Source of the DNA: a virus
Virus record (IMG/VR): IMGVR_UViG_3300043427_004031
Location: 1 to 49,579 of that record
Direction: 5' to 3' (one strand)
Length of the DNA: 49,579 bases
Shown here: positions 1 through 18,385 of the stretch, one piece after another
Position numbering within the stretch: the stretch's first letter is position 1
Layout: the number at the start of each line of letters is the position of its first letter
The notes under the pieces: generated by a model
What the model was told of the DNA's origin: nothing
The model's database searches: none
The model's input: only the letters and a program-made list of their open reading frames with translations
Position numbers and translations under genes: made by a program

Positions 1-1
1 G

Positions 2-52
2 GCTGCTTCAGGTTTCAAGGTTAAAGATCTTAAGGAACTAAATGAGCAATGA
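2..52 (+). CDS. C-terminal end of an upstream gene (truncated by window edge)
   Basis: An open frame runs from the window edge to a TGA at 50-52 and would encode the last 16 residues of an upstream protein (AASGFKVKDLKELNEQ). Its stop overlaps the start region of the next gene by about 11 bases, the usual arrangement in this window. Too little is present to assign a function. It could also be chance open frame, but the compact packing makes a real gene end likely. Confidence 0.5.
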   Translation, partial: AASGFKVKDLKELNEQ

Positions 53-770
53 AGATAGTGTAAAAAAACTAAAAGAAAAAATATCAAAGTATATAACAAA
101 TCTAACCCCAAAAGGCTCTAAGTATCCAATTGGGGTTGGTTGGTCTATATGGAACTCTTTTGAGATATCAAAAGAAGAAAGCCTAACTCTTTTTAATGAA
201 AAATCTTTTTATAGATTTATTTCTGCAAAAACAGGATCTATTTATGCTTTTAGGGCAGTAGTGCTTCATGCAGCATCTTTACATCCAGAGTTGGCAGTTG
301 AGATTTTATCTTCTGATAAGAAAAGCAATCTTTTTCCATATAAACAAACAGTAATATCAAATGGTTTATACGTCGATAAAATAGACCCCTCTATTTTTAA
401 AGATTATGATGCTGCGGCAAAGGTAGAATACATAAAGATTTGCTCCTCAGATGAGGTAGAAAGATTTTTAAAAGATCCCTCTGATAAGGTCCGCATGGAA
501 GCGTACCATAGAAGGGGGATGCTATCCTGCGCCGAGGAAATGTCGAAGGATAAGTCAGCAAAGATTAGGGCGGCAATATGTCAAGTTTTGCCACATAATC
601 ACCCAGCATTAGAAAATATGGTTAATGATAGATCTAAATGGGTTTTTTACTCAGTATTGAAAAAAGTAAATAAATCAAAGATTCCAATGATGCTAGGAAG
701 CAGGCATCTAAAAGAAAGCTTCGTTAATTCAATCCTTCAGAAAAGAATGAGTAATTTAGGAGAAAAATGA
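42..770 (+). CDS. Hypothetical protein with HEAT-like helical repeats
   Basis: A 242-residue soluble protein with no signal peptide or membrane segment. I do not recognise its family. The C-terminal half (about residues 140-220) contains three spaced segments of the form D-x-S-x-x-(V/I)-R-x-x-A (DPSDKVRMEA, DKSAKIRAAI, DRSKWVFYSV). These resemble the turn and second helix of HEAT/armadillo-type repeats, which usually serve as protein-binding scaffolds. The start ATG at 42 follows an AAGGA-type ribosome-binding site. The stop overlaps the next start as ATGA. A short stretch near 480-560 uses more G/C than the rest of the gene. The repeat reading is inference from spacing only. Confidence 0.8.
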   Translation: MSNEDSVKKLKEKISKYITNLTPKGSKYPIGVGWSIWNSFEISKEESLTLFNEKSFYRFISAKTGSIYAFRAVVLHAASLHPELAVEILSSDKKSNLFPYKQTVISNGLYVDKIDPSIFKDYDAAAKVEYIKICSSDEVERFLKDPSDKVRMEAYHRRGMLSCAEEMSKDKSAKIRAAICQVLPHNHPALENMVNDRSKWVFYSVLKKVNKSKIPMMLGSRHLKESFVNSILQKRMSNLGEK

Positions 771-946
771 GATACAACATCCGAGTAACTAACAAAGAAA
801 CAAAGACAGTATGGTATCACGATGGCCTTACAAAAGAGGAGATTGGATGGATACAGTGCAATAGCAATCTAGTTGTAGAGATTCGATCCGAATCACACGA
901 GCCACAGACAAGAGATTCTAGAGCACAGAGAGAAGACCAGGAGTAA
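767..946 (+). CDS. Small hypothetical protein, 59 residues
   Basis: ATG at 767 overlaps the upstream stop (ATGA), with GGAG at 759-762 as the ribosome-binding site, and the frame ends at TAA 944-946, three bases before the next start. The product begins MRYNIRVTNKETKTVWYHDG and ends in a charged, hydrophilic tail (SRAQREDQE). The first 40 residues alternate hydrophobic and polar residues as in a small beta sheet. No family is recognised. It fills exactly the gap between two genes and is translationally coupled to the upstream one, which supports it being real. Confidence 0.7.
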   Translation: MRYNIRVTNKETKTVWYHDGLTKEEIGWIQCNSNLVVEIRSESHEPQTRDSRAQREDQE

Positions 947-949
947 AAA

Positions 950-1498
950 ATGTTTCTTCTAATGGCCGGATTTGCTCTAGCTTATGAACCGGTTGAAGGA
1001 ATTAGCTTCCCAAATGAATCAGAGGTGGAAGAATATAACTTTTATCACAACATAGATCTTAAGTATAAAATATATAGACAGGCTAACTCTGGCTATTATG
1101 ATAATCTTATTTATGATGCAATTTATTCTTCTACATTAGCTTCATTTAAAGAAATCCGGTCATTAGGAGCAATTGATAAAAAGTGTGGAAAAGATGATTT
1201 TATTGAGATATATGAAATTTCAGAAAATCAGTTAAATGATCCATCTAGATTTCCTTCTCAATATATAGGTGGTGGTAAAACTGGCCGTGACTCACTTTGG
1301 GGATACTTTGATCCAAGGGCAAATGAGCCAGGATATAATGCAATAGTAATTACATCACATAATGATAAATCAAATTACAGAGTTATGGTGCATGAAATAG
1401 CCCACCATTGGTATTCTGAATTCTGTCTTGATAGGTTTACAAAAGTCAGTACAGAAGAGTTTGCAATTGCAATACAAGAAAAGGTAAGGTGGAAATAA
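950..1498 (+). CDS. Exported HExxH metallopeptidase-like protein, copy 1
   Basis: A 182-residue protein with a very short hydrophobic N-terminus (MFLLMAGFALA, then YEPVEG) that looks like a minimal signal peptide or membrane anchor with cleavage near residue 11. Near the C-terminus, at residues 148-152, it has HEIAH followed by HWYSEFCLD. HExxH is the zinc-binding and catalytic motif of many metallopeptidases. A downstream acidic residue (TEEFA, about 167-171) could be the third ligand. The next gene encodes a diverged paralogue with the same layout, so this is a tandem duplication. The protein is far smaller than typical exported peptidases, and the family is not recognised. Possible roles are cell-envelope degradation, processing of surface proteins, or superinfection exclusion; these are inference. 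Confidence 0.75.
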   Translation: MFLLMAGFALAYEPVEGISFPNESEVEEYNFYHNIDLKYKIYRQANSGYYDNLIYDAIYSSTLASFKEIRSLGAIDKKCGKDDFIEIYEISENQLNDPSRFPSQYIGGGKTGRDSLWGYFDPRANEPGYNAIVITSHNDKSNYRVMVHEIAHHWYSEFCLDRFTKVSTEEFAIAIQEKVRWK

Positions 1499-2052
1499 TG
1501 CTATATACTTTTCTTATATCATCTGCACTGGCTTATTATCCAGTTGATGAGATTAAATTTCAGGACTGGATTCAAAATGATGTAGTTAAGATTGGCGAAA
1601 AAAATACGGTACAATATTCTTTTCGTAGACAAGAAAAAACAGGATATTCTGTTTCCCTAACAAAAAGAGGAATATTAGTATCCTCTATTGCTAGCTTGAA
1701 AAAAATAAAAGAAATAAATTCAAATATAACACCGTGTAGAATAAATCAAAAAATAGAATTTTTTGAGGTTGGCTTTAACCAAATAAGCAGAGATAATCTT
1801 GTTCCAGCGGAACTTCCACTACAAGAAGATATGTTAGGTTATTTTGATCCTAGGCCTTCGGATAGTGGAGTTGATTCAATTGTTTTAACAAAAAATTCTC
1901 CATTTATAAACTTTCAGATAATAACCCATGAGGTTGCCCATCATTGGTATTCTTATTATTGTCTTGAAGAATATACCAATATGACATCTGAAGAATTTGC
2001 TCAAGAAATACAATTTTCCCTAAAGGAGTTTAATGACTATGAATATTACTGA
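1498..2052 (+). CDS. Exported HExxH metallopeptidase-like protein, copy 2
   Basis: A 184-residue paralogue of the preceding gene. I chose ATG 1498, which overlaps the upstream TAA as TAATG and sits after an AAGGT ribosome-binding stretch; a GTG at 1489 would add three residues. The N-terminus (MLYTFLISSALA, then YYPVDEI) is again a short signal-like hydrophobic segment. HEVAH at residues 144-148 is followed by HWYSYYCLEEY, matching HWYSEFCLDRF of copy 1, and both have GYFDPR about 45 residues earlier and EEFA after the motif. Conservation of the zinc motif in both copies, despite much divergence elsewhere, suggests both are active. The 3' end overlaps the next gene by 20 bases. Confidence 0.75.
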   Translation: MLYTFLISSALAYYPVDEIKFQDWIQNDVVKIGEKNTVQYSFRRQEKTGYSVSLTKRGILVSSIASLKKIKEINSNITPCRINQKIEFFEVGFNQISRDNLVPAELPLQEDMLGYFDPRPSDSGVDSIVLTKNSPFINFQIITHEVAHHWYSYYCLEEYTNMTSEEFAQEIQFSLKEFNDYEYY

Positions 2053-3109
2053 AGCTCTAGCATTTGATGATGTACTTTTGGTACCAACATTTACAGAAGT
2101 AAGATCGAGATCTATTCCAAATCTTGATACCGAGATTGCTGGAGTAAAGATGTCACTACCAATGATTTCTTCTCCAATGGATACTGTGACTGAATCTGCT
2201 ATGGCAATAGCAATTGGCCTTGCAGGCGGAATGGGAGTTATTCATCGGTTTATGTCAACTTCAGAGCAAATCGATAATATTCGCTCTATTGTAAGAGCAG
2301 AAGATGCGAACAAAAGAGAGATTCCAAAGGTTGCTGCAGTTGGACTTGGAAAAGATGAGGTAGCAAGATTTAAAGAGCTTTGGGCATCTGTTCCGCTTGA
2401 TGCAGTTCTTGTTGATGTTGCAAATGGTCATTCATCTTATATGGCAGATGGGCTTGGAAAAATAAAGGATATTGCACCAGATGTGAATATAATCGCAGGA
2501 AATGTTGCAACAGGAGAGGGCTTTCATTTTCTTGCAACCACAGGAATGGTAAATGCAGTAAGAGTCGGCATAGGATCAGGAAGTATCTGCTCTACCAGAA
2601 TTCAGACAGGATTTGGTGTACCACTTCTTCATTCTATAATGCAGTGCCTATATATGAGAAATGCAGTTTATAACCACAGAAAAATAGCAATTATAGCAGA
2701 TGGTGGTATTCGCTATCCATCGGATGTTGTTAAGTCAATTGCTGCTGGTGCTGACGCTGTAATGTGCGGAAGTCTTTTTGCTGCTACCGACGAGACACCG
2801 GGAGCCTCCATCCACGATGAAAATGCCGGCATAACATACAAGGTCTATCGAGGCATGGCATCAGCAGAAGTTCAGAGAGATCATCGAGGAGGCTTAAAGC
2901 CATTAACCTGTGCAGAAGGAGTATCCACTAGAATTCCAGCAAAAGGATCAGTAACTCCAATACTAGAAGAATTTGCTGGAGGTCTAAGATCTGGAATGAC
3001 TTATGCTAATGCAACAAGTCTTGAAGAGCTTAGAAGAAACTCTAAGTTTATAAGAATAACCCACGCTGGACTCCTTGAGTCTCATGCTTTTGGAACAAGG
3101 AAGGTATAA
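2033..3109 (+). CDS. IMP dehydrogenase / GMP reductase family enzyme
   Basis: A 358-residue (beta/alpha)8-barrel purine enzyme. The active-site loop GIGSGSICSTR places the catalytic cysteine at residue 186. The phosphate-binding segment IADGGIR and the following AAGADAVMCGSLFA are typical of GuaB and GuaC. IMP dehydrogenase makes XMP for GTP synthesis; GMP reductase makes IMP from GMP. There is no CBS pair and the length matches GuaC. The flap (YRGMAS to RIPAKG) also has the short GuaC-like length and lacks the Arg-Tyr dyad of IMP dehydrogenases. The C-terminal GGLRSGMTYANA and RITHAGLLESHAFG are GuaB-like. The reaction direction is therefore undecided. AAAGGAG at 2022-2028 supports ATG 2033. 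Confidence 0.9.
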   Translation: MTMNITEALAFDDVLLVPTFTEVRSRSIPNLDTEIAGVKMSLPMISSPMDTVTESAMAIAIGLAGGMGVIHRFMSTSEQIDNIRSIVRAEDANKREIPKVAAVGLGKDEVARFKELWASVPLDAVLVDVANGHSSYMADGLGKIKDIAPDVNIIAGNVATGEGFHFLATTGMVNAVRVGIGSGSICSTRIQTGFGVPLLHSIMQCLYMRNAVYNHRKIAIIADGGIRYPSDVVKSIAAGADAVMCGSLFAATDETPGASIHDENAGITYKVYRGMASAEVQRDHRGGLKPLTCAEGVSTRIPAKGSVTPILEEFAGGLRSGMTYANATSLEELRRNSKFIRITHAGLLESHAFGTRKV

Positions 3110-3399
3110 TGAGCGACAAAATAAACGAAACAATAAAATCAGTAATAGAGCTTAAAAGTGGTATAGGTCTCTTTTCAAGAGAGCTTGAAAAGATTCACTC
3201 TCAACTTGAAGAGCTTAAGTCTATCTTGGCAGCAAAACAGGCCGATCCAACTACACAAGAGCAGCAGGTATCAAAGCCTACGCCCATACAGAAAAAGACC
3301 CTTGTAGTCAGAAGGGAAGACCAGGAGGAAGTCGAGATTTTAGACAACAAAGGATACCAGATTCATGTCGTTGGGTTAGGCGTTCAGAAGTTAGAATAA
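3109..3399 (+). CDS. Small coiled-coil hypothetical protein
   Basis: A 96-residue protein whose start overlaps the upstream stop by one base (TAATG), so it is probably co-translated with the purine enzyme. Residues 5-45 are a heptad-like helix (IKSVIELKSGIGLFSREL, then LEELKSILA). A Gln/Pro-rich linker follows, and the C-terminal 30 residues are beta-prone (EVEILDNKGYQIHVVGLGV). It resembles small phage accessory proteins but no family is recognised. The gene ends immediately before the long structured gap at 3400-3605. Confidence 0.7.
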   Translation: MSDKINETIKSVIELKSGIGLFSRELEKIHSQLEELKSILAAKQADPTTQEQQVSKPTPIQKKTLVVRREDQEEVEILDNKGYQIHVVGLGVQKLE

Positions 3400-3417
3400 A
3401 GTTTTTTAGAATGGCAC

Positions 3418-3445
3418 TTGACCTCTGCGGTTCGGTGCCTATATT
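3418..3445 (+). promoter_or_regulatory. Sigma-70-like promoter upstream of the coiled-coil/MoxR region
   Basis: TTGACC at 3418-3423 and TATATT at 3440-3445 are separated by 16 bases, close to the bacterial housekeeping consensus. This is the best two-box promoter in the window and precedes about 150 bases of structured leader before the ATG at 3606. Confidence 0.5.
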
Positions 3446-3502
3446 CATAATGTCGCCAGCCGGAATGGGTAAGGCGAATGACTCAACGGCAAAAAGAAAG
3501 CC

Positions 3503-3536
3503 GATTTAAAAAATAAAAGATTGGATTTAAAAAATA
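3503..3536 (+). repeat. 13-bp direct repeat in leader
   Basis: GATTTAAAAAATA occurs at 3503-3515 and again at 3524-3536, with starts 21 bases apart (two helical turns), between the promoter and the GC-rich hairpin region. It could be a protein-binding pair or an AT-rich unstructured spacer. No function is known. Confidence 0.6.
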
Positions 3537-3537
3537 G

Positions 3538-3605
3538 GTTGCCGCTCACCGCTAGGTGGTTAAGCTATAGGGGCGGGCGGCAAGGTGGCCCACAAAGGAG
3601 GACGG
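3538..3605 (+). promoter_or_regulatory. Structured 5' leader before the coiled-coil gene
   Basis: The sequence is GC-rich against an AT-rich background. An outer stem TTGCCGC / GCGGCAA encloses an inner hairpin CACC-gcta-GGTG, and the ribosome-binding site GGAGGA (3597-3602) follows directly. A further weak stem (TCGCC / GGCGA) lies upstream near 3453-3477. It does not match a riboswitch consensus I know. It may control translation of the downstream gene or stabilise the mRNA. Confidence 0.45.
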
Positions 3606-3917
3606 ATGGACAATTCACAATTTCTTTTTCTTAGAAATGCTTTAGATGATATTTACCGAAAGCTATCAAATGTAGAGGCAGAAGTTCAGGCACTAAGAGC
3701 AGATGTTTCTTCTCTTAGCGTTAGACAGACAACCGGGGAGAATACAACAGATGGTCTAAGAGCAGAATATGAGGAATTCAAGGCACAATGGGATTCTGAG
3801 TCGCCAGATGTTCAGTCACTTAAGGATAATCTCCTTAAGCTAAGAGCCTCTCTCGCTTCGTTGGGCAGCTTAAATGAGGCTCTACAAAATGCAGAGAGCG
3901 TCGGTTCAGAAAAGTGA
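3606..3917 (+). CDS. Small coiled-coil hypothetical protein upstream of MoxR ATPase
   Basis: A 103-residue acidic, helical protein. I chose ATG 3606 because GGAGGA lies six bases upstream at 3597-3602; a GTG at 3585 would add seven residues but has no comparable site. Residues 5-45 (FLFLRNALDDIYRKLSNVEA, then VQALRADVSSL) and 60-103 form two heptad-rich helices joined by a Thr/Gly-rich linker, so an antiparallel coiled-coil or oligomer is likely. It sits between two structured non-coding leaders directly upstream of the MoxR-VWA pair and may be part of the same transcript. No family is recognised. Its general form resembles the small coiled-coil protein at 3109. Confidence 0.75.
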   Translation: MDNSQFLFLRNALDDIYRKLSNVEAEVQALRADVSSLSVRQTTGENTTDGLRAEYEEFKAQWDSESPDVQSLKDNLLKLRASLASLGSLNEALQNAESVGSEK

Positions 3918-4076
3918 TAGATGGGCAAATTCAAAAAATCTAAAAATCGCACCCATCTATGATATAGGGTTGCCGTGGCGAGGTTGCCACGGTACGGAAA
4001 CGGGGAAAGCCCCATAGCAGTCAATAGTCAACAATCGTTCTAACTCAATAATCGCAACTACCGGAGTAAAAAAATC
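3917..4076 (+). promoter_or_regulatory. Structured leader of the MoxR-like ATPase gene
   Basis: This 160-base gap contains three perfect stems in series. ATAGATGGG (3917-3925) pairs with CCCATCTAT (3952-3960) over a 26-base loop. CCGTGGC (3973-3979) pairs with GCCACGG (3986-3992) over six bases. GGGG (4002-4005) pairs with CCCC (4010-4013) over AAAG. None has a T-run, so they are not terminators. GGAG at about 4063-4066 serves the ATG at 4077. It shares the motif ATAGG(G)TTGCCG with the leader near 3534. No known riboswitch consensus is recognised. Confidence 0.5.
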
Positions 4077-5141
4077 ATGAACGTTTCTCATACCAAGCGT
4101 GTTCTTCGTGAAATGCCAATCGACAAGTCCATCATGCTTCGCGCAAAGCACGGTGTTGGCAAGTCCTCTGTAATCAAGCAGGCTGCCGCCGATCAGGGTG
4201 TCGCCTTCTTCGATGTTCGCCTTTCTCAGTGTGAGGTTGGTGATATTAAGGGTCTGCCTCACCTTGATACCGAGAAGGGTATCACCACCTTCCTCAAGCC
4301 TTACTGGTGGCCTCGCGATCCTCAGAGCAAGGGTATTCTCTTCTTTGACGAGCTTAACCGCGCCAGCAAGGACGTTCTTCAGGCAGTATTCGAGATCTGC
4401 CTTGACCGTCGCCTTGACGGTGAGAGGCTTCCCGATGGTTGGCGTGTCGTAGCGGCAGTTAACGCCGATGATGACTACGATGTTGTCGAGATGGACCCCG
4501 CTCTTCTTGACCGTTGGTTTATGATCGATTTCGATCCTACTCCAAAGGAATGGATTGATTGGGCACGTTCCGCGAAGGTTCATCCTGCCGTTGTAGAGTT
4601 TGTTGCTCGCAATCAGAACCTTCTTGATCCACCAGTCGGTAACATCGAGTCTGGTCGCGTCTATCCTTCTCGTCGTTCTTGGTCTGCTCTTTCCGATACC
4701 ATCATCGCTATGAATCTCACCGATGATACGGATGGTATGGTAACTCAGATCGCTAAGGGCTGGGTTGGTCGAGAGGTCGCAGTTATGTTCCAGAAGTTCA
4801 TGACTAACGAATTCTCTCAGCTTAAGGCAGCAGATGTTCTTGACAAGTTTGAGGAAATGGAGCCAAAGATCGAGGCTGCTTGCTCAGACATTGAGGTAAT
4901 CGCTGCACTCGCTAACTCCATCATTGACGAGGTTGCAGGTCGCTCTGCCGCTAAGATGAAGGAGAAGCAGACAGAGGCTCTTAAGAAGTTCTTTGGCATG
5001 GTTCCAAAGGATGTTGCTTCTAACCTCTGGACTTCTCTCCTCTCCAATCCAAAGACAAAGAAGATCGTTATGCCTTGGCAGTCCGATGCAGATTTCTGCG
5101 AGGTTCTCCGCAAGGTATACGGTATCGACTCTAAGAACTAG
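4077..5141 (+). CDS. MoxR-like AAA+ ATPase
   Basis: A 354-residue AAA+ ATPase of the MoxR type. Walker A is at residues 26-31 (GVGKSS), Walker B at about 86-92 (GILFFDE, followed by LNRA), and a sensor-like AAVNADDD follows at about 125-132. LLDRWFMIDF matches the arginine-finger region. MoxR ATPases act as chaperone-like remodelling machines with a partner carrying a VWA domain, and the next gene encodes exactly such a partner. Base and codon use differ from the window: arginine is mostly CGT/CGC and third positions are often C or G, while the neighbours use AGA. That suggests either selection for high expression or recent transfer. A strong terminator follows the gene, so the partner may have separate control. 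Confidence 0.88.
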   Translation: MNVSHTKRVLREMPIDKSIMLRAKHGVGKSSVIKQAAADQGVAFFDVRLSQCEVGDIKGLPHLDTEKGITTFLKPYWWPRDPQSKGILFFDELNRASKDVLQAVFEICLDRRLDGERLPDGWRVVAAVNADDDYDVVEMDPALLDRWFMIDFDPTPKEWIDWARSAKVHPAVVEFVARNQNLLDPPVGNIESGRVYPSRRSWSALSDTIIAMNLTDDTDGMVTQIAKGWVGREVAVMFQKFMTNEFSQLKAADVLDKFEEMEPKIEAACSDIEVIAALANSIIDEVAGRSAAKMKEKQTEALKKFFGMVPKDVASNLWTSLLSNPKTKKIVMPWQSDADFCEVLRKVYGIDSKN

Positions 5142-5152
5142 GGTCTACCCTT

Positions 5153-5194
5153 AATAAGAGGGGGAGGCGTCCCCTCCCCCTCTTATTCTTTTTT
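5153..5194 (+). terminator. Strong intrinsic terminator between MoxR and VWA genes
   Basis: A perfect 15-bp stem, AATAAGAGGGGGAGG at 5153-5167 with its complement at 5173-5187, has a five-base loop and is followed by CTTTTTT. It is the longest perfect stem in the window. It lies between two genes expected to work together, so it may set their expression ratio by partial read-through. Confidence 0.9.
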
Positions 5195-5224
5195 ACACAA
5201 CACCAATCTTTCCAAGGAGAAATT

Positions 5225-6370
5225 ATGTCGTATGATCGTGCTGCGCGTGACAGTCTTGAATCCGCAATCTCCACTCTTGTTCTTCTCTATCCTCTTTACG
5301 GTACTGTGTTCCTCTATCTGAACAAGATCGAGCGAAAGGACTTGCCAACAATGGCAGTCGGCACTACTCGTCGTGTTGACCTCGCTCTTTACTACAACCC
5401 AGACTTTGTGAAGAAGATGACTTACACTCAGCTTCGTGCAGTCCTTAAGCATGAGGCTCTCCACGTTCTTCTTCACCATATCTCTCGTAATCAATACTTC
5501 AACTACAACATGAAGGGCTACAATTACGCAGCAGATATGGCAATCAACTGTCATATCGAGGGTCTGCCAGAAGGTGCCCTCTATCCTAAGAACTTCCAGC
5601 TTCCAGATAACGAGTCCTCTGAGTGGTACTACGAGAAGCTTAAGAAGGAAGAGGAAGAGAAGGGAGAAGGTGCCCTTGAAGGCAAGGGAGAGCTTGTAGA
5701 CGACCACGAAATGTGGGGTGAGTGCGACGACGATATTATCAAGGAGAAGGTCCGTAATATCGCAGAGCAAGCTATTAAGGAGCAGGAGAAGAAGGGCTGG
5801 GGAGATATTTCCGGTAACCTTGCTCAGCAGATCATCGCTGCAAACAAGCCTGTGGTAAATTGGAAGCGTGAGGTTCGTTACTTCATCAATCAGATTATCA
5901 TGATGGGTCGAAAGTCAACCCGTATGCGTCCTAACCGTCGCTTCGGCTACAAAGACCCAGGCTCTAAGCGAGATTACACCAGCAAGATTCTTGTTGCGAT
6001 TGATACCTCTGGCTCTGTATCCGATCAAGAGCTAGAATACTTCCTTCAGGAATTGAACGGTATGATCTCCCATGTCAAGGTGGACTTGCTTCAGTTTGAC
6101 CATGAGATCAAGTCTGACCCGAAGCCATTTGAGAAGAAGGTAAAGAGGCTTGGCATAGTCGGTCGAGGTGGCACAAATGTCGATCCCGTTCTCCGAATGG
6201 CAGACGAAAAGCATTACGATGGTCTAATCGTAATGACCGATGGTGGCTTCGGTATCGGTGTTCCAAAGCCAAAGTGCCGCGTAATGTGGTGTGGTGTTAA
6301 GGCTAACGAGCATCACTTCAATCACATTACCTTCGGCAAGAAGGTAATGATCGAACAGAAGAAGAAGTAA
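5225..6370 (+). CDS. Metallopeptidase-like / VWA domain protein (DUF2201-like), MoxR partner
   Basis: A 381-residue two-domain protein. The N-terminal half carries HEALH at residues 76-80, followed by a YAADMAIN helix, as in the putative zinc-peptidase domain linked to VWA proteins of the DUF2201 type. An acidic linker (about 135-175) follows. The C-terminal third is a VWA-like domain with a metal-ion-dependent adhesion site starting at D260 (DTSGS), then a conserved GRGGTNVDP and a late MTDGG strand. Such proteins pair with MoxR ATPases in bacteria and were proposed to act in protein remodelling or conflict systems. Codon use is GC-richer than most of the window, as in the ATPase gene, which supports shared origin or shared selection. 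AAGGAGAA precedes ATG 5225. Confidence 0.85.
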   Translation: MSYDRAARDSLESAISTLVLLYPLYGTVFLYLNKIERKDLPTMAVGTTRRVDLALYYNPDFVKKMTYTQLRAVLKHEALHVLLHHISRNQYFNYNMKGYNYAADMAINCHIEGLPEGALYPKNFQLPDNESSEWYYEKLKKEEEEKGEGALEGKGELVDDHEMWGECDDDIIKEKVRNIAEQAIKEQEKKGWGDISGNLAQQIIAANKPVVNWKREVRYFINQIIMMGRKSTRMRPNRRFGYKDPGSKRDYTSKILVAIDTSGSVSDQELEYFLQELNGMISHVKVDLLQFDHEIKSDPKPFEKKVKRLGIVGRGGTNVDPVLRMADEKHYDGLIVMTDGGFGIGVPKPKCRVMWCGVKANEHHFNHITFGKKVMIEQKKK

Positions 6371-6379
6371 GCCAAAAAC

Positions 6380-6414
6380 TAGCCGGGCAGGTTAAAATCT
6401 TCCCGGCTATTTTT
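6380..6414 (+). terminator. Intrinsic terminator after the VWA gene
   Basis: TAGCCGGG (6380-6387) pairs with CCCGGCTA (6402-6409) over a 14-base loop and is followed by five T residues. It closes the MoxR-VWA region. Confidence 0.88.
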
Positions 6415-6440
6415 GTATCTATTAAAAGTCAAAAAATTAA

Positions 6441-6447
6441 GTATTAT
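6441..6447 (+). promoter_or_regulatory. Candidate -10 box (GTATTAT) for the M16 peptidase gene
   Basis: GTATTAT lies 15 bases before ATG 6463, just after a terminator and before an AGGGAG ribosome-binding site. No convincing -35 is seen. It belongs to the recurring G-preceded -10 family in this window. Confidence 0.45.
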
Positions 6448-6462
6448 CCTTAGGGAGTCAAA

Positions 6463-7662
6463 ATGAAGTTCATTATCAATAAAAATCCATCAAAGCTGGC
6501 CACAATTGCGGTTGCATTTCAGGCAGGTTCGGCATTAGAGCGAGAGGCATCTGTGCCAGATGGTACTGCTCATTTCCTTGAGCACTTTCTCTTCAAGGGT
6601 ACTCCTACTCGCGATTCTTTTGAGCTTTCTCGCCAGATTGCTTTCTATGGCGGTGACTCAAATGCCTATACCTCACATGAAGAGGTTGTATATTTTATTA
6701 CGCTGCCTGTAGATCACTTTGAGGCTGGAGTAGAGATTCTACATGATATGGTTACAAATCCAGCCTTTCCAGAGTCCGAGTTTGACAAGGAAAAGCAGGT
6801 AATCCTAGAGGAGCTTGCATCTGGAAATGACTCTGTTAATCGAGCACTTGGAAAGGAATTTGCAAGCAAGTTCTACTCAAACTATCTTTCCCGTCCTGTA
6901 ATTGGAACAGAAGAGTCAATTAATGCAATCCAGCTAGATCACCTAAAGCACTTCTTCTCTACCTTCTACAAGAAGGAGAATATGCTTATCTCTGTTTGCG
7001 CTCCAATGAAGCAATCAGAGACAGAGGCAGTTATCACCAAATACTTTGGTGAGCAGGATGGACAGGCAAACTTCCTTCTTACTCCAGAAAAGACAAAGGT
7101 CAAAAAGACTCTTACTGTAGAGGTTCCAAGAAACGATCTAGAGCAAGCTCACGTTATTTGGGCTTGGCCTTCATTCAAGTATGGCTCCAAGGAGGTATAT
7201 GCAGCGGCAGTCCTAGGAAATATTCTTGGTGATGGTATGGATAGCAGACTATTTCAAGAGGTAAGAGAAAAGGCAAACCTTGTGTATGGAATCGGTGCCG
7301 GTAATTCAACAGATCGTACATCTGGATCTTTCTCAATCCACTTCTCAACTAGACCACAGAATATGGAGCAGGCAAAGAGCATCATTCTTGCAGAGATTCA
7401 GAAGGCTATGACTACCCTTCCAACAGAGGAAGAGGTCCAGCGTTCAAAGAATAAGATGCGTACAGGAATCTATAGAAGCTGGCAGTCAGCAGAAGGAATT
7501 GCTCTTAAGTGCGTAGATCATTACTTTATGAAGAAGAAGATTCCAAGTATTGCAGCAACAAACCGTAAGCTTTCAAAAGTAACAGCAGAAGATGTAATGG
7601 CAGCAGCAAAGAAGATTTTTGTAGGAAAGAATGTTATTGCTGTAGCAAAGAAGGTGGAATAA
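6463..7662 (+). CDS. M16 family zinc peptidase (processing-peptidase-like)
   Basis: A 399-residue M16 metallopeptidase. The inverted zinc motif HFLEH is at residues 37-41, with H37 and H41 as ligands and E40 as the catalytic residue. The downstream acidic ligand lies in the segment ending ILEEL near residue 117. A second M16 half follows, with the substrate-side Arg-Tyr-type region near LVYGIGAGN. The length matches bacterial single-chain M16B enzymes. Family members degrade or trim peptides and act inside or outside the cell; there is no signal peptide, so action is probably cytoplasmic. The stop overlaps the thyX start by one base. Carriage by a phage is unusual; a role in virion protein maturation or host protein turnover is inference. 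Confidence 0.92.
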   Translation: MKFIINKNPSKLATIAVAFQAGSALEREASVPDGTAHFLEHFLFKGTPTRDSFELSRQIAFYGGDSNAYTSHEEVVYFITLPVDHFEAGVEILHDMVTNPAFPESEFDKEKQVILEELASGNDSVNRALGKEFASKFYSNYLSRPVIGTEESINAIQLDHLKHFFSTFYKKENMLISVCAPMKQSETEAVITKYFGEQDGQANFLLTPEKTKVKKTLTVEVPRNDLEQAHVIWAWPSFKYGSKEVYAAAVLGNILGDGMDSRLFQEVREKANLVYGIGAGNSTDRTSGSFSIHFSTRPQNMEQAKSIILAEIQKAMTTLPTEEEVQRSKNKMRTGIYRSWQSAEGIALKCVDHYFMKKKIPSIAATNRKLSKVTAEDVMAAAKKIFVGKNVIAVAKKVE

Positions 7663-8702
7663 TGAATTTAATAATTACAGGAAATTTAAGAAGTGTTGCA
7701 AATTCTGCTTGGGTTTCTACACTTGATGAATCAAAGGCGGCTGCAAAATCAGATGAAGAGGTTATTCGTGTAACAAAGTTTTTAGTTGAAAATAATCATA
7801 CCTCGCCATTTGAATCGGTAACCTTAACCTTCTCATTCTCAACCTCAGAAGAATCAGAAGATGCATCTTACCAGCATTGGGAAATGGCTCCATTCCTTGC
7901 CTCTCCATATGTAAAGTCTTCTCAGTCTGAAGATGGATCGGTTGCATATATTACAACAGATCTCTTTAACTTCATAAAGATTGCAAAGTCTGCATATAGG
8001 AATGGCGAGTATAAGAGCACAACCTTCTGGAAGATTTTTGAAGGACAAGATCCGCTGCTTGCATCAACGGTAGATGGATTTAAGGCACCAGAGCCTTATA
8101 GCGGTGGTGCTCCAGATGTATCCAGCCTTATTGGAGAGACAGGGATTACCGTTGAGTTGGTAGACGTTCACCACGCACCCGTGCGTGAGCATGTGCGTGC
8201 AACATGGCGTATCTGCTGCCCGCTATCCATCGCAGTCCAAATGCTTCGTCATAGGACAGGAAGCTGGAACATGACCAGCGGAAGGTATCGAACACTCAAC
8301 CAGGATATGGTTCATCCCTATGTAGATATACAGGAAATAATGGGAAAGATATTTGATCCAAACTTGTCACCAAATGACACTGCTAAGTGGTGTGAGCTTT
8401 CATTCAAGGCAAAATTCAGGAACACCAGCGAATCATTTCGTGATTACGATTGGGCAATGAAAGAGTCAAAAAAAGCAAAGGAAGATGGAAAAATTACAAA
8501 CGATGAGTATAAGAGATTCAGAGAATTTGCTCGTTACGTTCTGCCAGAAGGTAGAATGACAGAGCTATACTGCACATTCTACCTTCCAGATTTTATTCAC
8601 TATCTTCAGCTTCGTGACTCTCCCCATGCTCAAACAGAGCACATCTACGTTGCACAACAGATGAAAAAGACCCTGAATGAAAAATTAAAAGAAAAAATAT
8701 AA
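7662..8702 (+). CDS. thyX: Flavin-dependent thymidylate synthase
   Basis: ThyX makes dTMP from dUMP using FAD, NADPH and methylene-tetrahydrofolate. The signature RHRTGSWNMTSGRY starts at residue 196 and fits the family motif RHR-x7-S with its following S-x-R-Y. ENNHTSPFE near residue 45 and the C-terminal LRDSPHAQTEH helix are also family features. At 346 residues it is about 100 longer than usual; the extra length is an insertion at about residues 60-150. Phages use ThyX to secure dTTP for replication. The start overlaps the M16 stop. A GC-rich island within the gene (about 8150-8290) covers the catalytic motif and contains a perfect hairpin at 8172-8187. Confidence 0.95.
   Translation: MNLIITGNLRSVANSAWVSTLDESKAAAKSDEEVIRVTKFLVENNHTSPFESVTLTFSFSTSEESEDASYQHWEMAPFLASPYVKSSQSEDGSVAYITTDLFNFIKIAKSAYRNGEYKSTTFWKIFEGQDPLLASTVDGFKAPEPYSGGAPDVSSLIGETGITVELVDVHHAPVREHVRATWRICCPLSIAVQMLRHRTGSWNMTSGRYRTLNQDMVHPYVDIQEIMGKIFDPNLSPNDTAKWCELSFKAKFRNTSESFRDYDWAMKESKKAKEDGKITNDEYKRFREFARYVLPEGRMTELYCTFYLPDFIHYLQLRDSPHAQTEHIYVAQQMKKTLNEKLKEKI
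8172..8199 (+). other. Intragenic hairpin with a second competing arm (thyX)
   Basis: CACGCAC (8172-8178) and GTGCGTG (8181-8187) form a 7-bp palindrome around CC, and a second copy of GTGCGTG lies at 8193-8199. It sits within the GC-rich island coding for the ThyX active site. There is no T-run. Confidence 0.55.
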
Positions 8703-8731
8703 AAATATTTTGATTATCAATAAGAAAAAAA

Positions 8732-8738
8732 GTATATT
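8732..8738 (+). promoter_or_regulatory. Candidate -10 box (GTATATT)
   Basis: GTATATT lies six bases before ATG 8745, and no ribosome-binding site is visible between them. If used, the transcript would start at or near the start codon, giving a leaderless or nearly leaderless mRNA. No -35 is apparent. Confidence 0.35.
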
Positions 8739-8744
8739 AATATC

Positions 8745-9080
8745 ATGAGCACAGAACTTATAATCCTAGGGCTAGTTGGAATTACAATAATAATAACTAC
8801 TGGTGCTATTTTTGAAGAGCTAAGAGAAAAAGTATCTAATATTTCTCAGGTACTAGGAAAACTAATAAACTGTCCAATGTGTACTGGATTTTGGGTAGGA
8901 TTCTTTTTTGGTTTTCTATCTGAAATTGCGCCACCAATAATAGTTGGTGGGCTAGTAAGCGTGCTTTCTTGGGCGCTATATTCAGTTGTTGATTACTTTA
9001 GTACTAAAAGCACTTGGTATGCAACACAAATTGTAAAAGAAACAGAGACCGAATCTATTGCTGAGGAACAAAATGAATAG
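8745..9080 (+). CDS. DUF1360-like small membrane protein
   Basis: A 111-residue inner-membrane protein with a hydrophobic N-terminal helix (LIILGLVGITIIITT), a second region WVGFFFGFLSEIA, and a third (IIVGGLVSVLSWALYSVV). The central CPMCTGFWVG is characteristic of the DUF1360 family, found in bacteria and several large phages, whose function is unknown. The two cysteines could bind metal or form a disulfide. Its acidic C-terminus overlaps the next gene. It may act in envelope remodelling or phage-host interaction, but that is speculation. Confidence 0.8.
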   Translation: MSTELIILGLVGITIIITTGAIFEELREKVSNISQVLGKLINCPMCTGFWVGFFFGFLSEIAPPIIVGGLVSVLSWALYSVVDYFSTKSTWYATQIVKETETESIAEEQNE

Positions 9081-9591
9081 AAATAAGGCTAGCAGAATAT
9101 CAATACCAGGAAGAATAGTACAACTACTTCTTCACGATGATGAGTTTTTTAGAGAAGTTACAAATATAAAGAAGGTTGGAACAGCAGGTACTTTTCCAAA
9201 GTATGATCAGTGGTGCGATGCTGAAGGATTTCATATGGAATTTGCTTTAGCCGGATATGCAAAAAAGGATCTTGAAGTTTGTTACTATGGACAGGAGCTT
9301 ATAGTTAAATCAACAAAGACAAATCAAGAAGTTGAGCTTACTGAAGATAGTGTAACAAGCGAAGTTATAATTGACGTTCCAAACAATAGAAGTTCTTCCC
9401 TACCAAAGATCCATCATGGTGCAATAGTAAGAGGAATTGCTAGAAGAAATTTCTCAACAAACTTTCTAATAAGTCATGACTTTGATGTGTCTGCAGCAAA
9501 AGCATCTGTAAAGGATGGACTCTTGCACATTACAATCCCAGCAAAGGGTGAAATTACAACAAATAAAATTGAAATTCAAAATGGAGAATAA
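9073..9591 (+). CDS. Hsp20 / alpha-crystallin small heat-shock protein
   Basis: A 172-residue protein with an alpha-crystallin domain. EGFHMEFALAGYAKKDLEV at about residues 53-71 is the first strand pair, the middle portion has an acidic loop, and ASVKDGLLHITIPA (about 142-155) is the classical C-terminal strand signature. Small heat-shock proteins hold unfolding proteins in an ATP-independent way. ATG 9073, overlapping the upstream stop and preceded by GAGG, is preferred over a TTG at 9058. Related proteins occur in many cyanophages and large myoviruses, where they are thought to aid virion assembly. It belongs with GroEL and the M16 peptidase in this window's proteostasis set. Confidence 0.88.
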   Translation: MNRNKASRISIPGRIVQLLLHDDEFFREVTNIKKVGTAGTFPKYDQWCDAEGFHMEFALAGYAKKDLEVCYYGQELIVKSTKTNQEVELTEDSVTSEVIIDVPNNRSSSLPKIHHGAIVRGIARRNFSTNFLISHDFDVSAAKASVKDGLLHITIPAKGEITTNKIEIQNGE

Positions 9592-9592
9592 A

Positions 9593-9841
9593 ATGACTGG
9601 TATATCTGAATTAATTGGAACTATGATTAAGGCCATTGTAGATGATCCTGCTGCCGTAGCAGTTTCCGAGGTAAGCTCACCAAAGGGTCCACTTTATGAG
9701 GTTCGTGTTGGAGCCTCAGATGTTGGCAAGATTATTGGAAAGCAGGGCCGTATTGCAAATGCAATTAGAACAATTGCAAAAGCAGCTGGTGCAAAATCAA
9801 ACCAGAGAGTAATGGTAAATGTTTTAAATAAGTCAGCATAG
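9593..9841 (+). CDS. KH-domain RNA-binding protein (KhpA-like)
   Basis: An 82-residue protein that is essentially one KH domain. The GxxG loop is GKQG at residues 49-52, within VGKIIGKQGRIANAIRTIAK, which closely matches bacterial KhpA (YlqC) proteins in length and sequence. KhpA binds RNA, often with KhpB, and influences small-RNA function and cell division in Gram-positive bacteria. An upstream in-frame TTG-type start at 9515 would overlap hsp20 by 77 bases; ATG 9593, just after the hsp20 stop and preceded by GGAG, is far more likely. A phage copy could affect host or phage mRNA fate. The domain assignment is secure; the biological role is inference. Confidence 0.9.
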   Translation: MTGISELIGTMIKAIVDDPAAVAVSEVSSPKGPLYEVRVGASDVGKIIGKQGRIANAIRTIAKAAGAKSNQRVMVNVLNKSA

Positions 9842-9849
9842 GAAATATT

Positions 9850-10230
9850 ATGAGCGCATTCTGGAACAATTTAATTGATAAAAAAGCACTGTCGATGTTT
9901 CAGAAGGCCCATCGTGCTGCAAACAGAAGAGCAGCAAAAAAGAACCTACCATTTGAGATATCTATTGATGATATAATTCATCAGTTTATATCTCAAGATG
10001 GTAGGTGTTTTTATTCTGGCCTAGAAATGAACATATCAAAAGCTAATAAATCAATTCTTCACGATCCATATAAGATGACACTTGATTGTAAAAAATCAGA
10101 ACTTGGATATAAAAAAGAAAATATAGTTTGGTGTATTTATTGCGTAAATTCTTTCAAACAAAAAATGGAAAAAGAAGAAATTATTAATATATGTAAGAAT
10201 ATAGTGAAGCATAATGAAGAAAAAAATTAG
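9850..10230 (+). CDS. HNH/endonuclease VII-like protein, possibly degenerate
   Basis: A 126-residue basic protein. GRCFYSGLEMN (about residues 51-61), then MTLDCKKSELGYKKENIVWC and CVNSFKQKM (about 74-105), follow the pattern of small phage HNH proteins that read C-x-x-S-G, then S/T-L-D-R-I-D, G-Y, N-V-V-W and N-x-x-K. The usual catalytic D-R/H-I-D is replaced by D-C-K-K, so nuclease activity is uncertain. Such genes are often homing-type mobile genes between conserved genes, here between khpA-like and HU. AGGAAATATT provides a ribosome-binding site before ATG 9850. Confidence 0.6.
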   Translation: MSAFWNNLIDKKALSMFQKAHRAANRRAAKKNLPFEISIDDIIHQFISQDGRCFYSGLEMNISKANKSILHDPYKMTLDCKKSELGYKKENIVWCIYCVNSFKQKMEKEEIINICKNIVKHNEEKN

Positions 10231-10417
10231 TGAAGAAAAAATATTAGAGAGAATAAAAAAACTATACCAAAACTATGGAATTGACATCTTAGTAATGGAA
10301 GATGAAGAATTCAAGAGGATTGTTGAGTTTTATAAATCAAATATTGAAAAACTTGCCGAAGATTTAAAAAAGTCAAGTTCTCATGCGAATAGTTTTTCGG
10401 ACGTAGATATAATCTAG
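10214..10417 (+). CDS. Small hypothetical protein, 67 residues
   Basis: ATG 10214 lies inside the 3' end of the preceding gene (17-base overlap). The product is highly charged and helical (KKKISEEKILERIKKLYQNY, then a second helix near EEFKRIVEFYKSNIEKL), ending in a Ser/Asp-rich tail. No domain is recognised. The overlap and the shared direction suggest translational coupling to the HNH-like gene. A short coiled coil or partner-binding role is possible. Confidence 0.6.
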   Translation: MKKKISEEKILERIKKLYQNYGIDILVMEDEEFKRIVEFYKSNIEKLAEDLKKSSSHANSFSDVDII

Positions 10418-10447
10418 TCATATTTACTATTTATACTTATATAGTAT

Positions 10448-10454
10448 GTATAAT
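10448..10454 (+). promoter_or_regulatory. Candidate -10 box (GTATAAT) for HU
   Basis: A consensus TATAAT preceded by G ends 19 bases before ATG 10474, with AAGGA as ribosome-binding site between. Upstream sequence is AT-rich with no good -35 at 16-18 bases. Confidence 0.5.
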
Positions 10455-10473
10455 AAAACTAAGGATATGAGAA

Positions 10474-10755
10474 ATGGTTAACAAAAAAGAATTAGCAAGA
10501 AAGTTATCAGAAAAAACTTTATTTTCAATAAAAGAAAGCTCACAAATGATAGATGTTCTTTTCGACTGCATTACAGAAGAGCTTTCATCAGGAAATGAAA
10601 TTTCTATAGTTAATTTTGGAAAATTTACGCTATATAAGCAGAAGCCAAGACCGGTAAGAAATCCAAAGACAATGCAAGAAATGGTATTGGATGAATTTTT
10701 GTCTGTAAAGTTTAAGCCATCTACTTATATTAAAGATAAAGTAAAGAATAAATAA
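10474..10755 (+). CDS. HU/IHF-type nucleoid protein
   Basis: A 93-residue DNA-bending protein of the HU/IHF family. The N-terminal helices (ELARKLSEKTLFSIKESSQM) and the core strand INFGKFTLYKQKPRPVRNPKT match the family, including the arm tip around the conserved proline in RNPKT. It lacks the GRNP glycine, a normal variation in phage copies. HU dimers bind and bend DNA nonspecifically and assist replication, recombination and packaging. A promoter-like GTATAAT lies directly upstream and the next gene starts two bases after its stop. Confidence 0.92.
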   Translation: MVNKKELARKLSEKTLFSIKESSQMIDVLFDCITEELSSGNEISIVNFGKFTLYKQKPRPVRNPKTMQEMVLDEFLSVKFKPSTYIKDKVKNK

Positions 10756-10756
10756 A

Positions 10757-12469
10757 ATGGCAACCTCAAGCAAAAAATTAACAAAATATACTTCTGGCTC
10801 CACGATAGTAACTGCGGATGTTGCAAACTCTTGGTTTGGAGGCCTATATGGAAGTTATGAAGGCTCCCTATTAGATGCAGATGATCCAAGGCTAACAGGT
10901 CACGTTCACGACGGAGAGCCATATGATGGTCATGCAGGAAAAATTGATTTGGTTGCTCATGTTAAGTCAAAGTTGCAGCACCAGAATCTTGCCGATAATG
11001 CTGTTGAGGTAAATAATGTCGCAAGATTTGAAGATCAGGCATCTGCAATACCAGAGTATCAGGATATTGATGGAACAAGATATTATTATCTTGACCTAAG
11101 AGAAGTGTATGAATATACTGATGCTGCAGTTGCATCAGTAGTCATTGGTTCTTCTCCTTTTGAAACTGCAGATACAAACTCAGATACAGTTGATGATGTA
11201 GTAAGGCAAGCCGATACAGACTATACAACAGGAATGGACTTTGTTTACGGATCATCAAAGCTTGATGATATGAACGATGGAACAAAGGGTAATGAAAGAT
11301 TTCTTTTTGATAAATCAAAAGGTGCCTTTAGAGCAGGAAGCGTAGAGTCAACTCAATGGAATGATGGTAGCAGAGGTAATTACTCTGCAGCACTAGGTAG
11401 AAATACCACGGCGAGTGGAACCTCTTCATTTGCAGCTGGAGCAGAAAATACTGCATCAGGTCAAAACTCATTTGTAGGAGGAGCATCAAATACTGCATCA
11501 GCAAATAATGCTGCAGTATTTGGAAACTCAAATACAGTAGCATCTACCGGATCTTTAGTATCTGGAGAGGCAAATAATATAGCTGGCGGCTCGACAAATC
11601 TTGTCGGAGGAAGAGAGCACCTATCATCTGCAAATAACTCCCTTATAACCGGAAGAGAAAATGAGGTAGAGGGAGATTTTAATGCTGTAACTGGGTATGT
11701 TTCTGACGTAGATGATGATGGTAATATAGTATCTGGAACAAAGAATTATGTTCGTGGAAATTATAATGCCGTATCTGGAGAGGAAAACTCAGCAGATAAT
11801 GACGGTGGAATTAGCGCAGATGCACAAAGAACAAATATATCTGGTTTCAAAAATTCTATAAAGGCAAAAAATTCAATATCTGCTGGAACTCAAAATCTAA
11901 CTAATTTTGGTGCAGATGATTCAGCAGTATTTGGAGTTGGCAATGGAGTATTTGGAAAAGCATCATTAACATTTGGTGTTGATTCATTATCAAAAGTACA
12001 GGGTGAATTTGCTCATGGATCTGGAAAGTTTGCCGTAGTTGGCGATGCCCAAACAAGCGAATATACCGTAAGGGGTAAGATTCTTAATCCATTTGGTCCA
12101 CCAGGATTAGTTCTCAGCATTGATGGTCTTGGCGCAAATTATAGTATGGATTTAAATTCAGCATACCACATATCTGTAATGTTGGTTGGAAAATTAGCTG
12201 GACCAATTCAAGAAGTTGGAGCATATAAGATTGAATCAATGGGGTTTGGACCAGTTACAACTCCAGCCCCAGGATCAATATCTGCTCCACTTATTACCTA
12301 TATATCAAGAACACCTTATTTTACTGCTGGACCGGGATGGGTAGGGGCAACAATGACCCTTGGAGGAACAAATATAATACAAATAAATGTATTTGATAAT
12401 CACCCCGCACTATCCTTCTATCCATCTGCTTGGGTTGCAACAGTAAAGCTAACTACTTGTAAATTTTAG
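10757..12469 (+). CDS. Fibre/adhesin-like protein with YadA-type beta-roll repeats
   Basis: A 570-residue protein. About residues 205-420 hold serial copies of a short repeat of the form xGxxNxASGxxSxxxG (for example AALGRNTTASG and AAGAENTASG, later GGASNTASAN). This matches the left-handed parallel beta-roll heads of YadA-like trimeric adhesins and many phage tail fibres. The N-terminal 130 residues (with HVHDGEPYDGHAGKIDLVAHV) resemble a virion attachment region, and the C-terminal 140 residues form a beta-rich globular domain with no repeats. It is probably a trimeric fibre or capsid decoration that contacts the host surface. It starts two bases after HU and is followed by a second repeat protein, probably of the same structure. 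Confidence 0.8.
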   Translation: MATSSKKLTKYTSGSTIVTADVANSWFGGLYGSYEGSLLDADDPRLTGHVHDGEPYDGHAGKIDLVAHVKSKLQHQNLADNAVEVNNVARFEDQASAIPEYQDIDGTRYYYLDLREVYEYTDAAVASVVIGSSPFETADTNSDTVDDVVRQADTDYTTGMDFVYGSSKLDDMNDGTKGNERFLFDKSKGAFRAGSVESTQWNDGSRGNYSAALGRNTTASGTSSFAAGAENTASGQNSFVGGASNTASANNAAVFGNSNTVASTGSLVSGEANNIAGGSTNLVGGREHLSSANNSLITGRENEVEGDFNAVTGYVSDVDDDGNIVSGTKNYVRGNYNAVSGEENSADNDGGISADAQRTNISGFKNSIKAKNSISAGTQNLTNFGADDSAVFGVGNGVFGKASLTFGVDSLSKVQGEFAHGSGKFAVVGDAQTSEYTVRGKILNPFGPPGLVLSIDGLGANYSMDLNSAYHISVMLVGKLAGPIQEVGAYKIESMGFGPVTTPAPGSISAPLITYISRTPYFTAGPGWVGATMTLGGTNIIQINVFDNHPALSFYPSAWVATVKLTTCKF

Positions 12470-12477
12470 AGGATAAT

Positions 12478-14121: not shown

Positions 14122-14130
14122 TTATTTTCA

Positions 14131-14137
14131 GTATAAT
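14131..14137 (+). promoter_or_regulatory. -10 box (GTATAAT) giving a probable leaderless transcript
   Basis: TATAAT preceded by G ends only eight bases before the GTG start at 14146, and no ribosome-binding site is present between them. A transcript starting about seven bases after the box would begin at the start codon. No clear -35. Confidence 0.45.
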
Positions 14138-14145
14138 GAAAAACA

Positions 14146-14469
14146 GTGACAAAATTGAACTTATACTTAGGATGCCACGGAAATGCTGATAAGGACGGCT
14201 TTATTTATTGTTCTTCTAATAATAATCTGCTGCTAGATCTATCTACGGTTCCTGCTGAAAAGCAGCAAAAGCTAATGAACTTCTTAGATAGCGCAGCGGA
14301 TCTTTTCTCTGGGCCAGTAGAAAATTATAACAAAGCATTTAATGTTATTAATTTTTTGCATCGAGATTTTGGTATATTTAGTTCAGATAAAATTTTAAAA
14401 ATTCAGAAATTCTTTCAGATGCATAAAGAATGCGGAATTTACCTAGTGTTAATACCGGAGAAAAAATGA
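14146..14469 (+). CDS. Hypothetical protein, 107 residues
   Basis: Starts with GTG at 14146 immediately after a GTATAAT box; the first ATG lies far into the frame. The protein begins TKLNLYLGCHGNADKDGFIY and is mixed alpha/beta with two cysteines; no motif or family is recognised. Its end overlaps the next start as ATGA, so it heads a small operon running into the FtsK-like gene. Function unknown; the position suggests a packaging or DNA-processing accessory. Confidence 0.65.
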   Translation: MTKLNLYLGCHGNADKDGFIYCSSNNNLLLDLSTVPAEKQQKLMNFLDSAADLFSGPVENYNKAFNVINFLHRDFGIFSSDKILKIQKFFQMHKECGIYLVLIPEKK

Positions 14470-14807: not shown

Positions 14808-14809
14808 AT

Positions 14810-15856: not shown

Positions 15857-15860
15857 TAAA

Positions 15861-16388: not shown

Positions 16389-16408
16389 AAACCGTAATTA
16401 ATAACTGA
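16385..16408 (+). pseudogene. Vestigial duplicate start of sbcD
   Basis: ATGAAAACCGTAATT here encodes MKTVI and continues NN to a TGA at 16406. The real SbcD gene at 17221 begins ATGAAAACTGTTATT, also MKTVI. Thirteen of the first 15 bases match, and both copies overlap the preceding stop as ATGA. The most economical reading is that a block carrying the homing endonuclease was inserted at this junction, leaving the old start behind. Confidence 0.6.
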
Positions 16409-16441
16409 TATATTATCATAAATAAATTTGCTTTAGTGACA

Positions 16442-16465: not shown

Positions 16466-16471
16466 GTGCTT

Positions 16472-18384: not shown

Positions 18385-18385
18385 A

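Follow-up and report, generated by a model that had tools for sequence, protein, structure and literature searches.

The stretch analysed here, referred to as the window, is the IMG/VR virus record IMGVR_UViG_3300043427_004031 at its full length of 49,579 bases, whose genes include DnaE, RecA, GroEL and sigma-factor-like ones. Near its start lies a three-gene block in which a MoxR-type AAA+ ATPase is followed by a partner with a metallopeptidase-like region and a von Willebrand factor A (VWA) domain. By sequence comparison, this block is the gp24/gp25-type pair of phage N4 and other tailed phages, a pair that is known but has no assigned function, and it is well preserved and probably highly expressed. 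We also consider it reasonably probable that the ATPase works as a ring remodelling targets picked by the VWA protein, with strong expression of both genes, leaders made up of promoters and hairpins, and a hairpin limiting the output of the VWA gene. The parts of the block are the following:

3400 to 3605, plus strand: leader 1, a structured non-coding stretch of 206 bases, characterized by its predicted fold, a box pair inside a hairpin and, further along, a GC hairpin.
3606 to 3917, plus strand: small coiled-coil-type gene, 103 amino acids (aa) from ATG 3606, with relatives in loci L004, L005 and L006.
3918 to 4076, plus strand: leader 2, 159 bases, with a 9-bp stem, a TATGATATAGGG box, a CCGTGGC/GCCACGG hairpin, a GGGG/CCCC hairpin and the ribosome-binding region of the ATPase gene.
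4077 to 5141, plus strand: MoxR-type AAA+ ATPase, 354 aa, phrog_1297 (N4 gp24 family), assigned from Pfam, PHROG and invariant residues.
5153 to 5187, plus strand: 15-bp hairpin with a T-run in the gap between the ATPase and VWA genes, a putative terminator or attenuator, with a predicted fold and with hairpins of changed sequence in the same gap of L004, L005 and L006.
5225 to 6370, plus strand: metallopeptidase-like (DUF2201_N) and VWA-like (DUF2201) protein, 381 aa, phrog_1314 (N4 gp25 family), assigned from Pfam, PHROG, invariant residues and models.
6373 to 6415, plus strand: hairpin 3′ of the VWA gene, a likely terminator (fold z -3.6).

Translation of the ATPase gene places the Walker A motif GVGKSS at residues 26-31, where the first-pass annotation of this DNA had put it. 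The protein matched AAA_5 of Pfam (E 6e-7) and, over residues 15-330, which make up most of its length, phrog_1297 (E 2.6e-63), the family that N4 gp24 matches too (E 2e-136). Residues K29, S30, D91, E92, N129 and R146 were invariant across 25 aligned ATPases, which, like the aligned VWA proteins, are a selection from the fetched loci with near-duplicates removed. K29 and S30 belong to Walker A and D91 and E92 to Walker B, and N129 and R146 would serve as the sensor asparagine and the arginine finger. Homologues of the ATPase were present in 530 of 50,697 phage records, all at less than 60% identity.

The partner carries HEALH at residues 76-80 and DTSGS at residues 260-264, both read correctly in the first-pass annotation. 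It matched DUF2201_N (E 1e-20) and DUF2201 (E 1e-13), each above the Pfam gathering cut-off, as well as phrog_1314 (E 1e-64), which is also the family of N4 gp25 (E 1e-135). Across 32 aligned homologues, those of N4, phiFa and S-TIM5 among them, H76, E77, H80, H85 and D104 were invariant, as were D260, S262, S264, T317 and D339, which form a complete metal-ion-dependent adhesion site (MIDAS; DxSxS, T, D). Judged from these alignments, the active-site residue sets of both proteins are intact. VWA homologues occurred in 235 of the 50,697 phage records, again all below 60% identity. In the predicted structure of the partner (mean predicted local distance difference test score, pLDDT, 82), residues 251-380 matched VWA domains with Z about 12 and a root-mean-square deviation (rmsd) of about 2.7 over about 128 aligned residues. 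Modelled on their own (pLDDT 83), the N-terminal 230 residues were matched well by predicted structures of other phage DUF2201-type proteins; zincins (BlaR1, selecase, MATCAP, SprT) were frequent among the top matches, in the company of unrelated proteins. Integrins and toxin receptors were also matched by the modelled VWA domain, and toxin chains by the N-terminus (Z 3-4), which would show a common fold at most. The label 'HNH endonuclease' attached to phrog_1314 is unsupported, as the domains are those of a metallopeptidase and a VWA protein. Many records also use this label to name gp25-type proteins, despite the same two domains.

The initial claim that no equivalent phage system is known is contradicted by N4 gp24/gp25 and by the MoxR-vWA pairs of jumbo phages. 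The pairs of N4, S-TIM5 and phiFa all match phrog_1297 and phrog_1314, and the N4 genes have the same order as those in the window and nearly equal lengths. They differ in that identity to the window proteins in alignments is about 19% (gp24) and 23% (gp25), no M16 gene is annotated alongside, and a strong codon bias is lacking. PMC4193335 counts gp24 and gp25 among the 14 core genes of 25 N4-like phages, with the function given there as not known, and reports them as middle transcripts, citing Kazmierczak and Rothman-Denes 2005; a passage of PMC2784036 names them putative AAA ATPase and vWFA protein. For group 2.2 jumbo phages, the relevant part of Iyer et al. 2021 (PMC7824862) describes a MoxR ATPase paired with a vWA protein bearing a metallopeptidase domain at its N-terminus, the same combination as here, and proposes virion assembly with peptidolytic processing for it. 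Compared by description, our pair differs from the latter in belonging to another phage group, in its neighbourhood of IMPDH, short ORF (open reading frame) and M16 genes, and in its codon signature. The vWA-MoxR conflict systems share the MoxR/vWA coupling and carry in addition, as outlined in a section of Kaur et al. 2020 (PMC7159879), effector domains and VMAP as a third component; Pfam and PHROG searches of the seven genes in 2033-8699 gave no match to either. PADLOC had no match for the ATPase, VWA or M16 proteins, and its weak matches (E 0.001-0.003) of the coiled-coil gene to LmuB and of ORF 1489-2052 to PDC-S57 were taken as chance. RavA-ViaA of E. coli, likened by published description, also joins a MoxR AAA+ protein to a VWA partner. 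To our knowledge, ViaA of E. coli is without a zincin domain. PMC3915230 had no useful passage on the pair, and a literature search for von Willebrand proteins with ATPases in Schitoviridae had no match.

The search with the ATPase alignment returned 44 loci, some of which repeat contigs already in the set (L039-L042, L068, L070, L081) and some of which are near copies of each other (e.g., L052/L053, L056/L057, L061/L062, L048/L065). A VWA homologue was found in the fetched flank of 41 of them, in agreement with the MoxR-type ATPase and metallopeptidase-VWA partnership proposed at the outset. It was missing in L068, the contig of which ends within the ATPase gene, and in L078 and L082, and in some distant loci the VWA gene was not the immediate neighbour of the ATPase gene. 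The 31 loci L039-L069 have ATPase identities of 62-100% and include six contigs longer than 200 kb, the largest of 335 kb. Among these 31, the VWA gene was present in 30 and M16 lay downstream in 29. The flank included an upstream IMPDH gene in 26, and in 29 the ATPase gene was directly preceded by an ORF encoding 90-137 aa. The small gene noted earlier beside the pair is thus a regular companion, and the order of short ORF, ATPase, VWA and M16 is old, recurring in most of the 31, down to 62% ATPase identity. No M16 gene was found in the 13 distant loci L070-L082. On this comparison of gene order, the pair has been passed on jointly with its neighbours within a group, some contigs of which exceed 200 kb. 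In the window the pair has IMPDH, M16 and ThyX as neighbours, and two features flank the block directly:

3109 to 3399, plus strand: 96-aa ORF with no assigned function, upstream of the block, 80% and 47% identical in L004 and L005, with no Pfam or PHROG match at E 0.01.
6463 to 7662, plus strand: M16 peptidase gene, conserved beside the pair in this phage group, assigned from Pfam and the neighbourhood comparison.

For the coiled-coil gene, ATG 3606, which follows AGGAGG, is a more likely start than GTG 3585. Eighteen upstream ORFs of more distant relatives match its family in a profile comparison (probability 93%, E 4e-7), a type of score that coiled coils inflate; L063 and L064 are outside that ORF set. 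The IMPDH genes of relatives are interrupted by an intein-like insert, immediately ahead of the catalytic S-I-C in the GGG-S-I-C loop (L042:1728-3221, L063:1994-3562, L044:1609-3270). The L042 insert gave Hint-type matches and a weak Intein_splicing match, the other two were recognized by eye, L044 seems to have a second insert of this kind, and the window IMPDH has none.

Going by what is known of the family, the ATPase would form a ring and remodel protein targets picked by the MIDAS of the VWA protein, and the zincin-like domain could possibly cut them. The most likely targets would be phage protein complexes, as Iyer et al. suggested for such pairs (PMC7824862). Late virion assembly fits uneasily with N4 gp24/gp25 being middle genes, according to the PMC4193335 passage. 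The pair might instead act in mid-phase on host or replication/transcription complexes, for host takeover or counter-defence, and not on virion parts. Its place in the genomes would suit such a role: in N4, phiFa and MTATph1 it lies among middle or replication-type genes, being situated between RNA polymerase and replication genes in N4, ahead of the replication genes in phiFa and two genes away from a DNA helicase gene in MTATph1. The middle transcription in N4 and the neighbours IMPDH, M16 and ThyX in the window are in line with it as well. Yet the N4-like phage RPP1, as presented in PMC4193335, encodes four virion proteins near the pair, in a second structural module taken as mid-phase, and LIT1 has a similar extra cluster. 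In the cyanophage S-TIM5, which has an Hsp20 gene before the pair, a gene noted as virion structural lies two genes after it, and no host target is known. We regard action on host or replication complexes as possible, though on the unlikely side, and retain phage protein complexes as the preferred targets.

Perfect stems had been described for both leaders, and they exist in leader 2 (9 bp, 3917-3925/3952-3960; 7 bp, 3973-3979/3986-3992), whereas the longest stem of leader 1 is imperfect (16 nt, 81%). Leader 1 folded better than its shuffles (z -2.5, 1 of 200 as good); the overall fold of leader 2 was not clearly above shuffles (z -1.3, 20 of 200 as good). Within the hairpin of leader 1 lies a sigma-70-like box pair, TTGACC-16-TATATT, with TTGACC at 3418 and TATATT ending at 3445. 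The boxes recur in L004, and in L005 with one change in the second box, with a spacer that varies. DNA identity to L004 and L005 was 90% and 80% for leader 1 and 86% and 83% for leader 2; L006 had no match to either. By eye, uncounted and uncontrolled, many relatives have a TATA-like box and then a GC hairpin of varying sequence before the ATPase gene, with a second such unit seen in L048, L052, L054 and L058; the box pattern was not found before the ATPase gene of L042, L044 and L066. The region has 41 promoter-like sites and its shuffles 30.0 ± 5.8, so that a single box counts for little. A candidate general phage promoter, GTGGTTAAGCTAT, had one exact site in the window and was rejected, since its 21 sites at up to three mismatches compare with 14.1 ± 3.9 in shuffles. 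We suggest that the leaders may act as promoters with 5′ hairpins, which is not proven. That they are ligand-binding or protein-binding regulatory RNAs instead appears unlikely to us: the fold of leader 1 and the retention of both leaders in L004 and L005 speak for it, but 3350-4100 had no Rfam match even at E 5 (nor had the window any at gathering), only three copies are at hand, leader 2 hardly differs from its shuffles, and the promoter-like boxes may account for part of the conservation.

The codon use of the pair is distinctive. Arginine is encoded by CGT or CGC at 31 of 39 positions in the ATPase and VWA genes, compared with 85 of 584 across the other 47 ORFs counted on the plus strand (Fisher p 1e-17, the test treating codons as independent); lysine is AAG in 65 of 66 cases and isoleucine ATA in 1 of 44. 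The proposal of a compositionally separate three-gene block stands for these two genes, but not for the coiled-coil gene, which has AGA for five of its six arginines. The bias is graded, with M16, the SSB-like gene (38007-38657), DnaE and RecA intermediate. On codon counts, no other genes of the window or of close relatives show an expression-type bias as strong as that of the ATPase and VWA genes. The preferred-codon set was chosen after the codon use of the pair was known, and for this reason we relied on an unsupervised codon axis and on comparison with the capsid gene. The ATPase and VWA genes rank 1 and 2 on the main axis in G001 (the window itself), G002 (in which the ATPase gene is cut) and G005, with 74, 50 and 53 ORFs, respectively. 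No capsid gene was found in these three fragments, and therefore three large relatives, G010, G011 and G012, were compared. The T4-type capsid family PF07068 had no match in 16 related records, but also none in control genomes, and is hence uninformative. In G010, with a capsid gene of phrog_2522 (E 1e-69), the capsid gene was first on the axis of 175 genes, the ATPase second, the SSB-like gene third and the VWA gene tenth. Ordered by similarity to capsid codon use, the ATPase and VWA genes came 2nd and 10th among 175 in G010; in G011 they came 7th and 5th among 176.

Because the pair is near the capsid gene in codon use in two of the three large relatives, its bias is better explained by translational selection, favouring high expression in some members of the group, than by recent transfer. 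Recent acquisition of the block from another organism, the source first suggested for its codon use, is very improbable: it would account for the clear contrast to most of the window, but the ATPase, VWA and largely the same neighbours stay together at 62-100% ATPase identity in related large phages, the coiled-coil gene is outside the contrast, the bias is graded through the M16, SSB-like and DnaE genes, and in two large relatives it comes close to that of the capsid and SSB-like genes. In close relatives, too, the homologues do not have the codon profile of their neighbours and stand out, which we ascribe to vertical inheritance under translational selection. Judging by the codon signature, few genes of this phage group may be expressed more strongly than the pair, and it therefore deserves direct testing in a laboratory phage.

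The element in the ATPase-VWA gap, first listed as a 15-bp terminator, was confirmed as a hairpin of 15 pairs at 5153-5187 followed by CTTTTTT (fold of 5139-5224, z -4.2), and it may be a terminator or an attenuator. Standing 3′ of the ATPase gene, it would pass only part of transcription or translation on to the VWA gene, and such partial passage would leave the ring subunit in excess over its partner.

Several results weigh against parts of the account given so far. Hairpin and T-run are the sole basis for the idea of ATPase excess. The best zincin match of the N-terminal model is weak (Z 4.9, rmsd 3.9, 112 residues aligned), and as unrelated proteins are also among the top matches, the zincin fold is only likely and not proven. 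The main axis of G011 puts the pair only at ranks 17 and 20 of 176, its top being filled by a repeat array. In G012 (335 kb) the pair lacks capsid-like codon use, at ranks 183 and 174 of 299, by a measure on which the capsid gene itself ranks only 15th; on the main axis it ranks 42 and 111 of 299. Codon use is ordinary in N4, with gp24 10th and gp25 26th of the 37 genes tested (72 annotated features). As an observation apart, bases 199849-211228 of G011, near one end of this 211-kb relative, hold related ORFs with a repeated K-x-W-x-LNG-x-x-HREDGPA-type motif.

When the ATPase-VWA gaps of relatives were compared, an RNA motif emerged that has no Rfam match and stands at gene junctions in many uncultured phages; it is a fresher lead than the pair itself. 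The comparison covered 30 full gaps (the 31 loci minus L068, with near copies included and L039 being the window), of which 28 carry a hairpin-type element. In 18 gaps the window-type hairpin is replaced by CCCAC[A/G]GG..GGCA[C/T].GGG..GGTG[C/T]C, with a near variant in L046; eight have a perfect stem of at least 8 bp, L041 has an imperfect version of the window hairpin, and L063 and L064 have neither motif nor stem. The motif was located as follows:

L047:5088-5128, with equivalents in L043-L067; L123:3261-3292; copies in L124-L249: CCCAC RNA motif at phage gene junctions.

The pattern has no copy in the window. Across 15 aligned copies, 98% of the stem cells were paired. Changes on both sides occurred in 9 cells, compared with 2.2 ± 1.3 for shuffles and no more than 2 for slid alignments; the pair-type count (6 vs. 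5.7) was not above shuffles, and one pair supplies most of the covariation signal. A CCC:GGG pseudoknot is possible. Rfam had no family above its cut-off for the motif (two copies searched at E 10, six loci at gathering). The pattern occurred in at least 120 viral contig stretches and in one stretch among 84,980 genomes, from a WOR-3 metagenome-assembled genome. Among the 126 distinct copies listed, the ATPase-VWA type included, 123 have an upstream ORF, in 113 with its stop at most 20 bases away. A T-run (6 of 8) follows only 36 of these 126, which disfavours plain termination. Of the proteins encoded upstream, 31 of 45 chosen from 121 listed match the SSB family, and 17 of 33 downstream proteins, chosen from 103 listed, match UvsX; from these neighbours, the motif would mark junctions after genes such as SSB and the present ATPase. 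Blastn gave no convincing match to the motif in named phages, within the limits set by short queries and low-complexity masking, and a literature search for an RNA motif with UvsX and a pseudoknot had no match. A bolder version of the preferred account, which we put forward tentatively and think rather unlikely, is that the pair forms a mid-infection remodelling protease machine as abundant as the capsid protein, and that its two-gene transcript is adjusted to give ATPase in excess over VWA, through an element belonging to the class of the virus-specific motif found between SSB and UvsX genes in many uncultured phages.

DNA of positions 1-20000 of the window had no match among named phages, and no tRNA genes were found in the window. 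Two tandem related ORFs, 950-1498 and 1489-2052, carry HEIAHHW and HEVAHHW, respectively, and look zinc-protease-like, with no Pfam match; in many loci, relatives of these ORFs precede the ATPase block. Further downstream, an ORF of 2457 aa (24011-31384) had no PHROG match at E 0.01, and 39280-40923 is a GroEL-type chaperonin gene (Cpn60_TCP1).

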